12,925 bases of DNA, from positions 1 through 12,925 of the forward strand of contig LKUE01000365.1 of NCBI GenBank assembly GCA_001412365.1, given 5' to 3'. Below are positions 5,268-10,045 of this stretch, in pieces. The DNA is from Desulfuromonas sp. SDB. Its GTDB lineage: Bacteria; SDB-A. Position 1 is the stretch's first letter. Each line of letters opens with the position of its first letter. Position numbers and translations under genes: made by a program. Below the pieces are notes generated by a model. It saw only the letters and a program-made list of their open reading frames with translations. It ran no database searches and was not told the DNA's origin.

Positions 5268-6110
5268 TTATTCAAAGGTTAATTGAATTTTATCGGTGTA
5301 AAAAGCAGTGGGAAAGCAGTAGTTGCCAATCAGAGTATCTCCAATGGCAGTAACTATAGTATCATACCGGAGAATGCTACCCTGCAGGGTATCCATGTTG
5401 ACTGCGGAAAAATATACAGTGACATTGCCCGTACTCAACAAAACGGTGGGAATAGGTATACTGGTAAAGGTATCGGGTAGAGGAATGGGCAGGGGACCAA
5501 AGGTGAAATCACCGGTTATTTCTAAAATAGCAGCGGCTACATCTACATTGACATTTGCTTGATTTACAGTAGTCCATCTGAACCACACAGTGTCGGTTGA
5601 AGAAATATCAATGGTAGCGCCATTGGCAGGATAGGTTAGATCAACATAGGGCATGATTACTGAACCGGCAGCTGATCCTGCATCAGTGGTAACCGTTACA
5701 GCATAACCATTGCCGGTGGTAAAGGGATAGTCATATTCCGGAGGAAAAGCAGGTAAAGCCAGAGTGGGGAAATATAGATGATCCAGGTCAGAAAACTCTT
5801 TTAGAAAAACTGAATCTCCTGCCTGTCCTTTGACCAATACATGCACTCCGGAAACTGGGGAATTGTTTTTTAAAATCTTGGCAATCATAGTCTGCAAAGA
5901 ACCATTATAGGGAATGTCAAAAGGCAAACAGGGCAAATCCACCGGAAATGACCCTAAAATAATCTGAAAATCAATATTGGTTCCTCCCTGAGGTGGATCG
6001 GTAGGATACCAGCGGTGAGGTTGTTCAACAGGATTGGTTGTCTTGTTGGAACAAGCTGCGATGAAAATTAAAATTGATGATATTATCATAGTTAAAGTTA
6101 ATTTTCTCAT
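5268..6110 (-). CDS. Putative lipoprotein, beta-rich, function unknown
   Basis: The 280-aa product begins with a clear lipoprotein signal peptide (MRKLTLTMIISSILIFIAAC, lipobox IAAC, Cys20) followed by a Ser/Asn/Thr linker. The remainder is rich in alternating hydrophobic and polar residues, Thr, Val and Pro, suggesting beta-sandwich folds. The segment around residues 155-200 (starting PYVDLTYPANGATI) resembles a fibronectin-III or Ig-like module. I do not recognise the family. A strong AGGAGGT site five bases before the ATG fixes the start. It follows the DUF192 gene after 33 bases and precedes the cupin gene by 14 bases. Confidence 0.75.
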   Translation of the reverse strand: MRKLTLTMIISSILIFIAACSNKTTNPVEQPHRWYPTDPPQGGTNIDFQIILGSFPVDLPCLPFDIPYNGSLQTMIAKILKNNSPVSGVHVLVKGQAGDSVFLKEFSDLDHLYFPTLALPAFPPEYDYPFTTGNGYAVTVTTDAGSAAGSVIMPYVDLTYPANGATIDISSTDTVWFRWTTVNQANVNVDVAAAILEITGDFTFGPLPIPLPDTFTSIPIPTVLLSTGNVTVYFSAVNMDTLQGSILRYDTIVTAIGDTLIGNYCFPTAFYTDKIQLTFE

Positions 6111-6831: not shown

Positions 6832-7713
6832 TTAACCACCGTATCCCAATTTGTTAATACTTTCTGTTTTCTTCCTCCATTTTTCCATTATTTTAACCTT
6901 AATCTCAAGGTAAACTTGATGACCAATAAATTGCTCTATCTTCTCCCTGGATAAGATCCCCAGTTTTTTTATTGATTGCCCTCCCTTTCCAATTACTATT
7001 AATTTCTGAGATTTGCTTTCTAAAAAAATAGTCGCTTGGATAAAGTACTTGCCTCGAGATCTTTCCTTGAAATCATCTATTAATACTGAAAGGGCATAAG
7101 GTATTTCCTGGTGGTAGATATCATAAGCTGTTTCTCTGATTATTTCTCCACAGTAGAAACGTTGGTTACGGTCAGTAATTGTATTTTTATCAAAGTACCT
7201 AGGTCCGTAAGGTAAGTTAGACACAATTTTATCAGTTAACTGGTCAAGATTAATTTTTTCTTTTGCAGAAATCATCACCACATCAGTAAAATCATGCATG
7301 CTCATCCACTGCTTGGTTAGGGGCAATAATTCCTTCTTATTTTTCACCTTATCAATTTTATTAATTGCTAATATTACAGGTTTTTTGCTAAGCCTCAAGC
7401 TGTCTACTTCATAAGGCTGATTTGGTTCCACTACCAGCACTGAAAGATCACTATCCGACAATGATCGTTTTATTTGTTTAACCATTACTTTTTGTAATTT
7501 ATAACGAGGTTTAATTATTCCAGGGGTGTCTACAAAAATGACTTGATAGTCATCACCATTAAGAATACCTAAGATTCTATGTCTGGTCATCTGAGGTTTT
7601 TGAGAGGTTGAAGAAAGAGGGAAATCAATTATACTGTTGAGAAGAGTTGATTTCCCCGCATTGGGTTTTCCCACTATACTGACGTATCCGCTAATAAAAT
7701 TATCATCAATCAT
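6832..7713 (-). CDS. era: GTPase Era, 30S subunit assembly factor
   Basis: Era binds the 3' end of 16S rRNA and helps small-subunit maturation. The 293-aa length is normal. Visible motifs are the P-loop GKPNAGKS (residues 15-22), the switch region QKPQMTRHRILG (38-49), DTPG (62-65), NKID (118-121) and SAKE (149-152). The C-terminal KH domain carries GKGG (242-245) followed by SIKKLGILSREKIE. The ATG at 7713 is the only Met near the N-terminus. No Shine-Dalgarno sequence precedes it. Instead TATAAT lies seven bases upstream, which raises the possibility of a leaderless transcript. It is the first gene of the long minus-strand block. It contains no CCGG tetranucleotide, unlike most of the window. 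Confidence 0.97.
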   Translation of the reverse strand: MIDDNFISGYVSIVGKPNAGKSTLLNSIIDFPLSSTSQKPQMTRHRILGILNGDDYQVIFVDTPGIIKPRYKLQKVMVKQIKRSLSDSDLSVLVVEPNQPYEVDSLRLSKKPVILAINKIDKVKNKKELLPLTKQWMSMHDFTDVVMISAKEKINLDQLTDKIVSNLPYGPRYFDKNTITDRNQRFYCGEIIRETAYDIYHQEIPYALSVLIDDFKERSRGKYFIQATIFLESKSQKLIVIGKGGQSIKKLGILSREKIEQFIGHQVYLEIKVKIMEKWRKKTESINKLGYGG

Positions 7714-7720
7714 AAAATTA

Positions 7721-7726
7721 ATTATA
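7721..7726 (-). promoter_or_regulatory. Candidate -10 box of era (leaderless start)
   Basis: On the minus strand a perfect TATAAT ends seven bases before the era ATG, where transcription would begin at or next to the start codon. The -35 region is poor (TAGCTG at 17 bases). The absence of any Shine-Dalgarno sequence supports the reading, but the AT-rich context weakens it. Confidence 0.4.
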
Positions 7727-7805
7727 TCGGAAAATACAGAGTTCAGCTATTTTTTTCATAAAAATAAAGCATAACCACATCAAAAATTGTTATTATTTTT
7801 TCAGT

Positions 7806-7822
7806 TGCACAAAATTTGTGCA
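7806..7822. promoter_or_regulatory. NtrC-like enhancer site (TGCAC-N7-GTGCA)
   Basis: TGCACAAAATTTGTGCA is an inverted repeat with perfect 8-base arms around one central base. Its outer arms and spacing match the TGCAC-N7-GTGCA frame of NtrC-type upstream activating sites, although the inner bases (A and T where NtrC sites have Y and R) do not. Its centre is about 160 bases upstream of the predicted sigma-54 transcription start, a normal distance for an enhancer-binding protein. Which regulator binds it is unknown. Confidence 0.6.
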
Positions 7823-7947
7823 TATTATTTTCATTTACAACAGAATTTTATCCTGAGTTAAAATTTCAGCGCTTTATTAAAACATTAGAATCTACATATA
7901 TAACTTCATAATGTAATATATAAAATTAATTATTTTTATGATAATAT

Positions 7948-7962
7948 TGGCACAGTGATTGC
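7948..7962 (+). promoter_or_regulatory. Sigma-54 (-24/-12) promoter of the FecR/DUF6600 gene
   Basis: TGGCACAGTGATTGC matches the sigma-54 consensus TGGCAC-N5-TTGC exactly, with the required ten bases between GG (7949-7950) and GC (7961-7962). The predicted start is near 7974, leaving a leader of about 34 bases with a GGGGG ribosome site before the ATG at 8008. Such promoters need an AAA+ enhancer-binding activator, consistent with the inverted repeat at 7806-7822. Confidence 0.85.
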
Positions 7963-8007
7963 TTATCTATATACAAAAGAAGTTAAAAAATACCCAAAGG
8001 GGGAAAT

Positions 8008-9990
8008 ATGAATATAAATAAAATGAAGTACAAATTATGGGGAATATTGGTAATATCACTATTTATTTTATCAAATTCCGCTTTCAGCCAAGGACTACCT
8101 GCAAGAATTGGTAAAATTTCAGGCAACGTAGTAATTCAAAGATGGGTAAGTGCTGAACCTGAGTACGCAACTTTAAACCTGCCCATTGAACCTGGAGATT
8201 CAATATTAACCAATGAAGGTTATGTAGATGTGGAAATTGAAGATGGTTCAGTAATAAGAATTAATGAAAATTCCTATTGCCGGTTTATAACTGTGGGCAA
8301 TCAGGATAAAACAGATGAAACTTCAACCCGTATTTATTCAGAACAGGGCTGTTTCGAATTATTTCCCTCCCCTAATTATGAAACTTCAAAAAGTTATATT
8401 GATGTTGAAACGAAAACAGCAATTGTAACTGGATTTCCAAATTCAGTTATCAACCTTGAAGTCTTTCCCGATGGAAGCATCATCATTGAAGTAATTCAAG
8501 GAGATGGAGCTTATAAAACCAATCGGGAAGAAAAAATTATTTCCGCTGGTGATTATGTTGAAATAAACTCGATGGGTGTTGGCTCAATTACCCACCGCCA
8601 GGTTCCATCAACATATTCATCAAACACTGAAAATTCGTCATACTCATCCTCCTCTGTGGATTCACCGAGTAGAGCTTACCTGCCCAAAAAAATATATAAT
8701 TCCTGCGAAGTGTTTGATGAAAATGGAACCTGGGTTTATGTTTCCTCTTACGGTTATTGCTGGAAACCTAAGACCTATGTAGTTAAATGGCAACCTTATT
8801 CTTATGGAGAATGGGTCTGGACGCCTCGTTGGGGGTATGTCTGGGTTTCCAGTGAACCGTGGGGGTGGTACACCTATCACTACGGTTACTGGGTTTGGCA
8901 CAAGGGTTATGGATGGATTTGGATGCCAGGATCATACTGGGTTTCAGCCAGAGTAATATGGTCTTGGGGCAATTTATGGATCGGCTGGTTCCCCGCTCCC
9001 CCTTATTATTACTGGTGGCCATGGTATCCTTATGACTGGTGGTACTGTGTAACCTGGGATCATTTCTACACTCCCCGGTACCGCTATCATAATCCCAGAT
9101 ACGGATGGGTTGGAGATAAACCAGTATTTAGGTACCCCCGCTATTATCCTGATGAAAGAATTGAATTTTGTTCACAGGAAGATCCGGAACAACCTGGTTA
9201 TCTAACCACCAATCAGCCGTTTGAACAACCTCTGGAAAATATGACGCCTCCTACTAGAATTGAAGACAACAGCAACCGCATTCAGATGAGTACAGATCCA
9301 GTAAGGGATAACGGGAACCACCTTGAAATTTCAAATAATTCCAGAACATCGGATAGGCCTATTCAATCAAATCAACCGGTTATTGAGGATAGCAGAACTA
9401 ATGATTTTAACACCAGCAACCACACTCCCCAAGAAAATGCACCCAGGCAAAATACAAATAATCAACCTAACACCTCCTCCAATAACCGCAATCCGGAAAT
9501 CACCACTCCTGCTCCCCGGCCTAATGATAATTATTTTGAATCCACCAATCAGAGAACAAATCCTCCCCAAACCAACACCAGTGGTAATAATAATTCAAGA
9601 ACTTCTCCTCCCCAGGATAATACCGGATATAACCATACTCCCCAGACAAATCCTCCCAATGATAATAACAGAACTTACACCCCTCCTGAGGACAATAACA
9701 GAGAACAACCTCCTCAAACCAACCAACCCCAGGAAAATAATAATCAACCCAACCATAATTCAACAAACCATAATAATCAAGAGAATAGACCTGAACAAAA
9801 CAATCGCCCCCCCCAAAACAACAACAGCAATGAAAATCAAAACAACCGTACCCCTCCCCCTCAAAATAACTCAACCGACCATCAACCTCAAAACCGAACC
9901 AATCAAAATCACCGCAATAGTCCTCCCGATGATCAAGAAAACAACTCTCCCCGAGACAGTAACACACCTTCTCGGAGCAGAGATAATTGA
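8008..9990 (+). CDS. Secreted FecR-like / DUF6600 protein with Asn/Pro/Gln-rich tail
   Basis: The 660-aa product has four parts. Residues 1-28 form a signal peptide (hydrophobic stretch ending SAFSQ, no lipobox). Residues about 30-190 form a FecR-like beta domain, with PGDSILTNEGYVDVEIEDGS typical of its core. After a Ser-rich linker (about 195-220), residues about 240-355 form a DUF6600-like core of repeated Trp/Tyr/Gly motifs (24 Trp in about 110 residues, e.g. GEWVWTPRWGYVW). The last ~205 residues are a low-complexity Asn/Pro/Gln/Thr/Ser tail, likely disordered. A GGGGG site precedes the ATG, and a sigma-54 promoter lies upstream. The function is unknown. An envelope or extracellular-matrix role is inferred from export and composition. 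A C8 run at 9807-9814 could cause frame slippage. Confidence 0.9.
   Translation: MNINKMKYKLWGILVISLFILSNSAFSQGLPARIGKISGNVVIQRWVSAEPEYATLNLPIEPGDSILTNEGYVDVEIEDGSVIRINENSYCRFITVGNQDKTDETSTRIYSEQGCFELFPSPNYETSKSYIDVETKTAIVTGFPNSVINLEVFPDGSIIIEVIQGDGAYKTNREEKIISAGDYVEINSMGVGSITHRQVPSTYSSNTENSSYSSSSVDSPSRAYLPKKIYNSCEVFDENGTWVYVSSYGYCWKPKTYVVKWQPYSYGEWVWTPRWGYVWVSSEPWGWYTYHYGYWVWHKGYGWIWMPGSYWVSARVIWSWGNLWIGWFPAPPYYYWWPWYPYDWWYCVTWDHFYTPRYRYHNPRYGWVGDKPVFRYPRYYPDERIEFCSQEDPEQPGYLTTNQPFEQPLENMTPPTRIEDNSNRIQMSTDPVRDNGNHLEISNNSRTSDRPIQSNQPVIEDSRTNDFNTSNHTPQENAPRQNTNNQPNTSSNNRNPEITTPAPRPNDNYFESTNQRTNPPQTNTSGNNNSRTSPPQDNTGYNHTPQTNPPNDNNRTYTPPEDNNREQPPQTNQPQENNNQPNHNSTNHNNQENRPEQNNRPPQNNNSNENQNNRTPPPQNNSTDHQPQNRTNQNHRNSPPDDQENNSPRDSNTPSRSRDN
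9379..9987 (+). repeat. Degenerate low-complexity repeat encoding the Asn/Pro/Gln-rich tail
   Basis: This stretch encodes loosely repeated units of roughly 14-18 residues around a [T/S]PPQ-x-N-x(n)-NN-R core (for example TNPPQTN, TSPPQDN, YTPPEDNN, PPPQNN). On the coding strand it is rich in CCTCCC and AATAAC blocks and poor in G. The repeat is not exact at the DNA level. The same bias keeps other frames open and generates spurious reading frames on both strands. Confidence 0.75.
9807..9814 (+). repeat. C8 homopolymer tract inside the FecR/DUF6600 gene
   Basis: Eight consecutive C residues encode part of an Arg-Pro-Pro-Gln stretch. Tracts of this length are prone to replication slippage. Loss of one C would shift translation into a frame that stays open to 10015. 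Confidence 0.8.
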
Positions 9991-10021: not shown

Positions 10022-10045
10022 AAAGCCGGCAATATTGCCGGCTTT
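10022..10045. terminator. Hairpin transcription terminator after the FecR/DUF6600 gene
   Basis: AAAGCCGGCAAT at 10022-10033 is followed directly by its exact reverse complement at 10034-10045. The GC-rich GCCGGC core is followed by TTTATTATTT. It lies 32 bases after the stop codon at 9990. With 12 paired positions on paper (the innermost few forming the loop), it is a convincing rho-independent terminator, although the T-tract is interrupted. Confidence 0.85.

Follow-up and report, generated by a model that had tools for sequence, protein, structure and literature searches.

It has been proposed that sigma-54 controls the exterior of bacteria (Francke 2011, PMC3162934), in an account that covers the transport and biosynthesis of exterior components and whose main text leaves FecR unmentioned. 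A known case is the PEP-CTERM/EpsH regulon (Haft 2006, PMC1569441), which has the PrsK-PrsR pair with its NtrC-family regulator, and in which secreted surface proteins are encoded as single-gene units, each preceded by an upstream activator motif and by a -24/-12 site that lies 23-221 nt from the start codon (PMC1569441). NtrC itself recognizes a palindromic box, which in E. coli is TGCACCAnnnTGGTGCA (PMC8743547; compare PMC4987338). Our literature search found nothing on the function or regulation of the DUF6600 family (PF20245), nor an open-access paper that mentions DUF6600. Here we describe a sigma-54 site in front of a DUF6600 gene in a 12,925-nt stretch of DNA from Desulfuromonas sp. SDB (hereafter the window, at its full length), and compare it with its counterparts elsewhere in bacteria.

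The sigma-54 site and its gene

The site, TGGCACAGTGATTGC at 7948-7962 on the + strand, has GG at 7949-7950 and GC at 7961-7962 with exactly 10 nt in between (TGGCAC-N5-TTGC, with a GG-N10-GC core), and is the sole match with 0 mismatches in the whole window. A previous sequence-only reading had described it as a near-perfect sigma-54 promoter with exact spacing, 45 bases ahead of the gene start and improbable by chance in an AT-rich region, and each part of this description was borne out. The pattern is matched in full; the -12 C lies 45 nt from the ATG (8008) of the DUF6600 gene, which is itself preceded by the purine-rich ribosome binding site AAAGGGGGA (7996-8004, + strand); and in a Markov-1 simulation of the intergenic region (7714-8007, 294 nt, 22% G+C) an 11/11 site arises with P=0.0007 and a site of at least 10/11 with P=0.004. 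From sigma-54 promoter geometry, a transcription start can reasonably be predicted near 7974 (+ strand), 12 nt past the -12 GC.

The three further genomes of the phylum that were available for comparison, which belong to one genus, all contain an orthologue of the gene (47-49% identity). In each of them AGGCAT-N5-TTGC occurs at the equivalent place (AAGGCATGTATATTGC, AAGGCATAATTATTGC and AAGGCATATTTATTGC), immediately ahead of the ribosome site, so that the conservation before orthologues proposed earlier as a check is found in 3/3 cases; the element is thus kept in 4/4 genomes, amid intergenic DNA that has diverged. The neighbour on the other side is the era GTPase gene (6832-7713, - strand; Pfam MMR_HSR1 and KH_2), divergent from the DUF6600 gene in all four genomes. 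Downstream, an intrinsic terminator at 10022-10045 (+ strand), made up of a stem of 10 pairs and a T-rich tail behind it, closes a single-gene transcription unit.

We consider it very probable that 7948-7962 is a real sigma-54 promoter of the DUF6600 gene. It could be argued instead that the -24/-12 match is a chance likeness and that the gene is transcribed from an ordinary housekeeping promoter, given that the region is 78% A+T, that weak -10-like sequences are easily found in such DNA, and that a single exact motif is by itself thin evidence. This is highly improbable, however, in view of the small chance expectation and the retention of the element throughout the four genomes, the lack of any sigma-70-like site on the + strand between 7700 and 8060, and the recurrence of this motif upstream of DUF6600 genes in different families, where the controls are clean (see below).

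The product of the gene (8008-9990, + strand) is a secreted, Trp-rich protein of 660 aa, consisting of a signal peptide, a FecR-like beta region (residues ~30-195), the DUF6600 domain (236-332) and a long Asn/Pro-rich tail. Its earlier designation as a secreted FecR/DUF6600 protein stands for DUF6600, for which the match to PF20245 (E 3.2e-23, 82.2 bits) is above the curated cut-off of 27, and is weaker for FecR, for which PF04773 gives E 0.1 and 13.5 bits, below the curated cut-off of 24, with E 0.005 for the best orthologue; 'FecR' is nonetheless a plausible label for the beta-rich region. Structure prediction from six sequences was poor (pLDDT 49), and an alignment of 55 DUF6600 sequences raised pLDDT to 80, yielding a model of four consecutive Trp-rich beta-hairpins (window 8677-9162) for which neither Foldseek nor VIA-align found a relative in the PDB. 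That such a hairpin array might bind glycan or the wall is a guess.

The genome from which the window derives, analysed by pattern searches and fetched stretches, contains rpoN (E 4e-47), a presence that the sequence-only reading had also named as a check, as well as ten full Sigma54_activat proteins, which supply AAA+ activators with a GAFTGA-type loop. The exact sigma-54 pattern has 7 matches in the 3.14 Mb genome versus 0 for the reversed control, and the looser, AT-rich WGGCAYN3WWTTGCW has 15 versus 0 reversed. Several of these matches lie 26-45 nt ahead of the start codons of genes for secreted proteins, response regulators and a type IV pilin, with a NifX-like gene also among the targets at promoter distance, and others adjoin activator genes. 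The organism thus appears to make use of sigma-54, since sites at promoter distance or beside activators coincide with an empty reversed control and with the presence of rpoN and activators.

Some of these other sites deserve brief description. On contig C257 the gene for a type IV pilin has a sigma-54 site (locus L056, 1350-1365) 39 nt ahead of it, which agrees with control by PilR in this phylum. On contig C103 a gene for a PAS-type activator is followed, near 5398 of locus L048, by a NifX-like gene that is driven by sigma-54 and has TGCAATATGC/GCATATTGC repeats upstream. On contig C130 (L052/L053) a different activator has two sigma-54 sites beside it; upstream of each site are repeats of the TTTCCG/CGGAAA type, probably the enhancer of this neighbouring activator. 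Kinase-fused activators of 1716-1717 aa, comprising Ser/Thr kinase, AAA, TPR, GAF, Sigma54_activat and Fis domains, are encoded on contigs C114 (L099, 5164-10314), C208 (L100, 3446-8599) and C353. Exact sigma-54 sites beside those on C114 and C208 precede genes for secreted proteins, namely a C25-type peptidase with a C-terminal sorting domain and a Peptidase_S74 protein, and these two activators probably adjoin their own secreted targets. A further site on C114 (L050, 1501) precedes the gene for a 110-aa PqqD-like protein, with the kinase-activator gene on one side and the gene for the C25 peptidase on the other.

An upstream palindrome and its candidate activators

A second element, absent from the sequence-only reading, lies upstream of the promoter: a perfect palindrome, TGCACAAAATTTGTGCA, at 7806-7822 (no strand), conserved in 4/4 genomes of the phylum and agreeing with the NtrC box at 12/14 fixed positions. 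The probability of GCACN7GTGC in the intergenic region is 0.00025. With zero mismatches, the 15-bp core consensus matches each of the four genomes at this locus only; with one mismatch allowed, a single extra match to the core appears in three of the four, on one strand only. MAFFT misplaced the palindrome in an alignment of the intergenic regions because its spacing varies, and motif anchoring was used in its stead. The distances from the palindrome centre to the -24 GG are 135, 84, 85 and 94 bp, which look helically in phase, on a sample (n=4, three of the genomes being related) that is too small for this purpose. A role as terminator was considered and rejected, the palindrome being situated between divergent genes and without a T tract after it in genome G001.

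By its sequence, the palindrome is probably an enhancer for an NtrC-family activator. Its proximity to era, however, suggests another reading, which accepts the sigma-54 promoter as real but takes the palindrome for an era operator, or for a shared one bound by a non-sigma-54 regulator: it precedes the era start by 41-92 nt in the four genomes, in all of which era is divergent. We regard this as unlikely, given that the half-site is NtrC-like, that enhancers typically lie this far from a sigma-54 site, and that two other lineages have a conserved element upstream of the DUF6600 sigma-54 site with no era alongside.

Only three groups of activators are common to all four phylum genomes. Group A, on contig C191, comprises an NtrC-like regulator in one gene run with a dCache histidine kinase and an LptD_2 outer-membrane protein; the best NCBIfam match of this regulator is ntrC (TIGR01818; 418.9 bits, below the cut-off of 558.6), and against PrsR (TIGR02915) it scores 386.8 bits, below the cut-off of 502.6. 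Group B adjoins pilB, pilT and pilC and is PilR (contig C339), and group C is the PAS-type activator of C103, beside its sigma-54-driven NifX-like gene. The recognition helix of the C191 regulator, HRNTLRDK, is identical or almost so in the four genomes, and weakly resembles the recognition helix of NtrC. As a means of assigning the activator this comparison was set aside as too weak, the helices of FleQ and ZraR (PDB hits) being comparable.

The C191 pair may be the activator that binds the palindrome, and is the likeliest single candidate, if at somewhat less than an even chance. The choice rests on elimination, since the sites near the likely targets of groups B and C look different, and on the weak likeness of the recognition helix. 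That PilR or the C103 PAS-type activator acts here instead is rather doubtful: both groups are likewise present in 4/4 genomes, but, read by eye, the motifs upstream of the sigma-54 sites at the pilin gene and at C103 are different ones (TTTGCGTATATTACG- and TGCATATTGC-like, respectively), and the two genera do not share a conserved recognition helix in group C.

Recurrence before DUF6600 genes

Of 290 genomes in a broad sample, 38 (~13%) contain DUF6600, as do 114 of the 195 genomes searched from one Myxococcota-like phylum (58%). Among the first 30 loci, which include one gene twice (L025 and L144, without a site), 12 have a site of at least 9/11 within 250 nt upstream, compared with 0.95 expected from shuffles and 1 for the reversed pattern. 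This first, unselected set suffices for the link between sigma-54 and DUF6600. The 9/11 cut-off gave 4 reversed matches in 40 and was too loose, and 10/11 was therefore adopted.

The full set combines the broad sample with second copies, a small phylum and the Myxococcota-like phylum, for a total of 116 distinct genes in 50 families. A site of at least 10/11 is present upstream of 32 of these genes, representing 14 families, in a set where members of one family do not count as independent, the window's own phylum (four genomes) is counted in, two later genome sets were picked for holding positives, and start codons were chosen by rule. The corresponding controls are an expectation of 0.36, taken from the remainder of the loci, and 0 for the reversed pattern, and of the other genes in the same loci only 3 of 681 have a site (Fisher p 1e-25). 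The median distance from site to start in the 32 genes is 52 nt. A strong site is absent from 36 of the 50 families, and sigma-54 control is therefore patchy; on a quick tree of the DUF6600 domain the site label switches 16 times, and sites have therefore been repeatedly gained or lost.

Some lineages offer a view of the accompanying regulators. In family f226 (Myxococcota-like), an activator gene is found directly upstream of the DUF6600 gene on the same strand in 9/9 genomes, with the sigma-54 site between the two. This activator is a membrane-anchored protein of 910-950 aa with dCache, HAMP, Sigma54_activat and Fis HTH domains (checked in three), and 8/9 of the loci share, by eye, a TGGAAT...ATTCCNTTTTGG-like element. 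The one-piece sensor/activator layout of these loci (L246-L254) is uncommon, and in several of the genomes genes for a GAF/PAS histidine kinase and a receiver-GAF-PAS protein precede that of the activator. In family f162 (Anaeromyxobacter-like), the element CACA(C/G)(T/C)GT(G/T), or CACAC-GTG element, lies 64-67 nt upstream of the GG in 10/10 sigma-54-linked genes versus 0.03 expected, with the motif defined on the same sequences. In the phylum of genome G221, an activator gene occurs 1-4 kb from DUF6600 in two families, joined in one case by a histidine kinase gene. At L163 (7615-12422) and L164 (5036-9202), from two families of one phylum, genes for DUF6600, a GHMP-kinase-like protein and an NtrC-type activator adjoin. 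Judging by the f162 element, the adjacent f226 activator and the neighbours in the G221 phylum, different activators seem to be wired to the same kind of gene in different lineages.

Proposed control and comparison with known systems

We hypothesize that RNA polymerase with RpoN sits at 7948-7962 as a closed complex, and that an AAA+ activator of the NtrC family, whose most likely binding place is 7806-7822, reaches the promoter via DNA looping and opens the complex, whereupon transcription of the single DUF6600 gene would begin near 7974. The dCache kinase and NtrC-like regulator of C191 would be the likeliest switch, and, if so, their place in a gene run with LptD_2 would point to an envelope or surface cue for DUF6600 expression. 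The basis for this scheme is the promoter match and its conservation, the presence of rpoN and activators, the conservation of the palindrome and the recurrence across phyla, all by sequence; the palindrome's function as enhancer, the identity of the activator, the signal and the role of the protein are what we infer. Additions to the sequence-only reading are the conserved palindrome, the recurrence in 14 of 50 families and the adjacent activator in one family; the nitrogen, surface or envelope signals that it offered as examples are conjectural.

More generally, DUF6600 proteins with such promoters appear to be made only once a dedicated sensor-activator is switched on, because the sigma-54 promoter type recurs before this family in unrelated bacteria. 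It seems likely that they form a widespread, hitherto unnoticed class of sigma-54-controlled exterior proteins, with lineage-specific activators and enhancers and a shared inducing condition, the wiring of different activators to the same gene suggesting a common condition that calls for a DUF6600 protein. Sigma-54 and the adjacent activators provide a first regulatory handle on DUF6600, and the question now is which signal the Cache-HAMP activator senses, and how switching on its DUF6600 partner affects the envelope.

There is a resemblance to the PEP-CTERM regulon: in both a surface protein is encoded by a single-gene unit with a sigma-54 site and an upstream motif. This shared logic (PMC1569441), including secretion of the product, might suggest that the DUF6600 gene belongs to the PEP-CTERM/exosortase (PrsK-PrsR) sigma-54 regulon. 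Such membership has next to no probability and was rejected, however, as two defining features are missing: the C-termini of the 32 sigma-54-linked DUF6600 proteins carry no PEP-CTERM tail, and the candidate full-length regulators score 363-387 bits, under the PrsR cut-off of 502.6. In addition, the upstream motif of DUF6600 genes differs by lineage, and the DUF6600 case is not confined to Proteobacteria.

Similarly, NtrC-controlled promoters of the glnA type share with this locus a 17-bp palindrome (12/14 positions) about 75-126 nt upstream of the -24/-12 site, but the DUF6600 locus has a single such site and its target is a secreted protein rather than a nitrogen gene, while its candidate regulator (C191) falls under the ntrC equivalog cut-off. 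The protein encoded in the window is a clear member of the DUF6600 family, to which the link with sigma-54 is added here. The case fits the sigma-54-exterior theme of Francke 2011 and makes DUF6600 a concrete cross-phylum instance of sigma-54 governing the bacterial exterior. Control by sigma-54 of the exterior, and of PEP-CTERM proteins, was known; what is new is DUF6600 as a recurrent target of this otherwise ordinary machinery.
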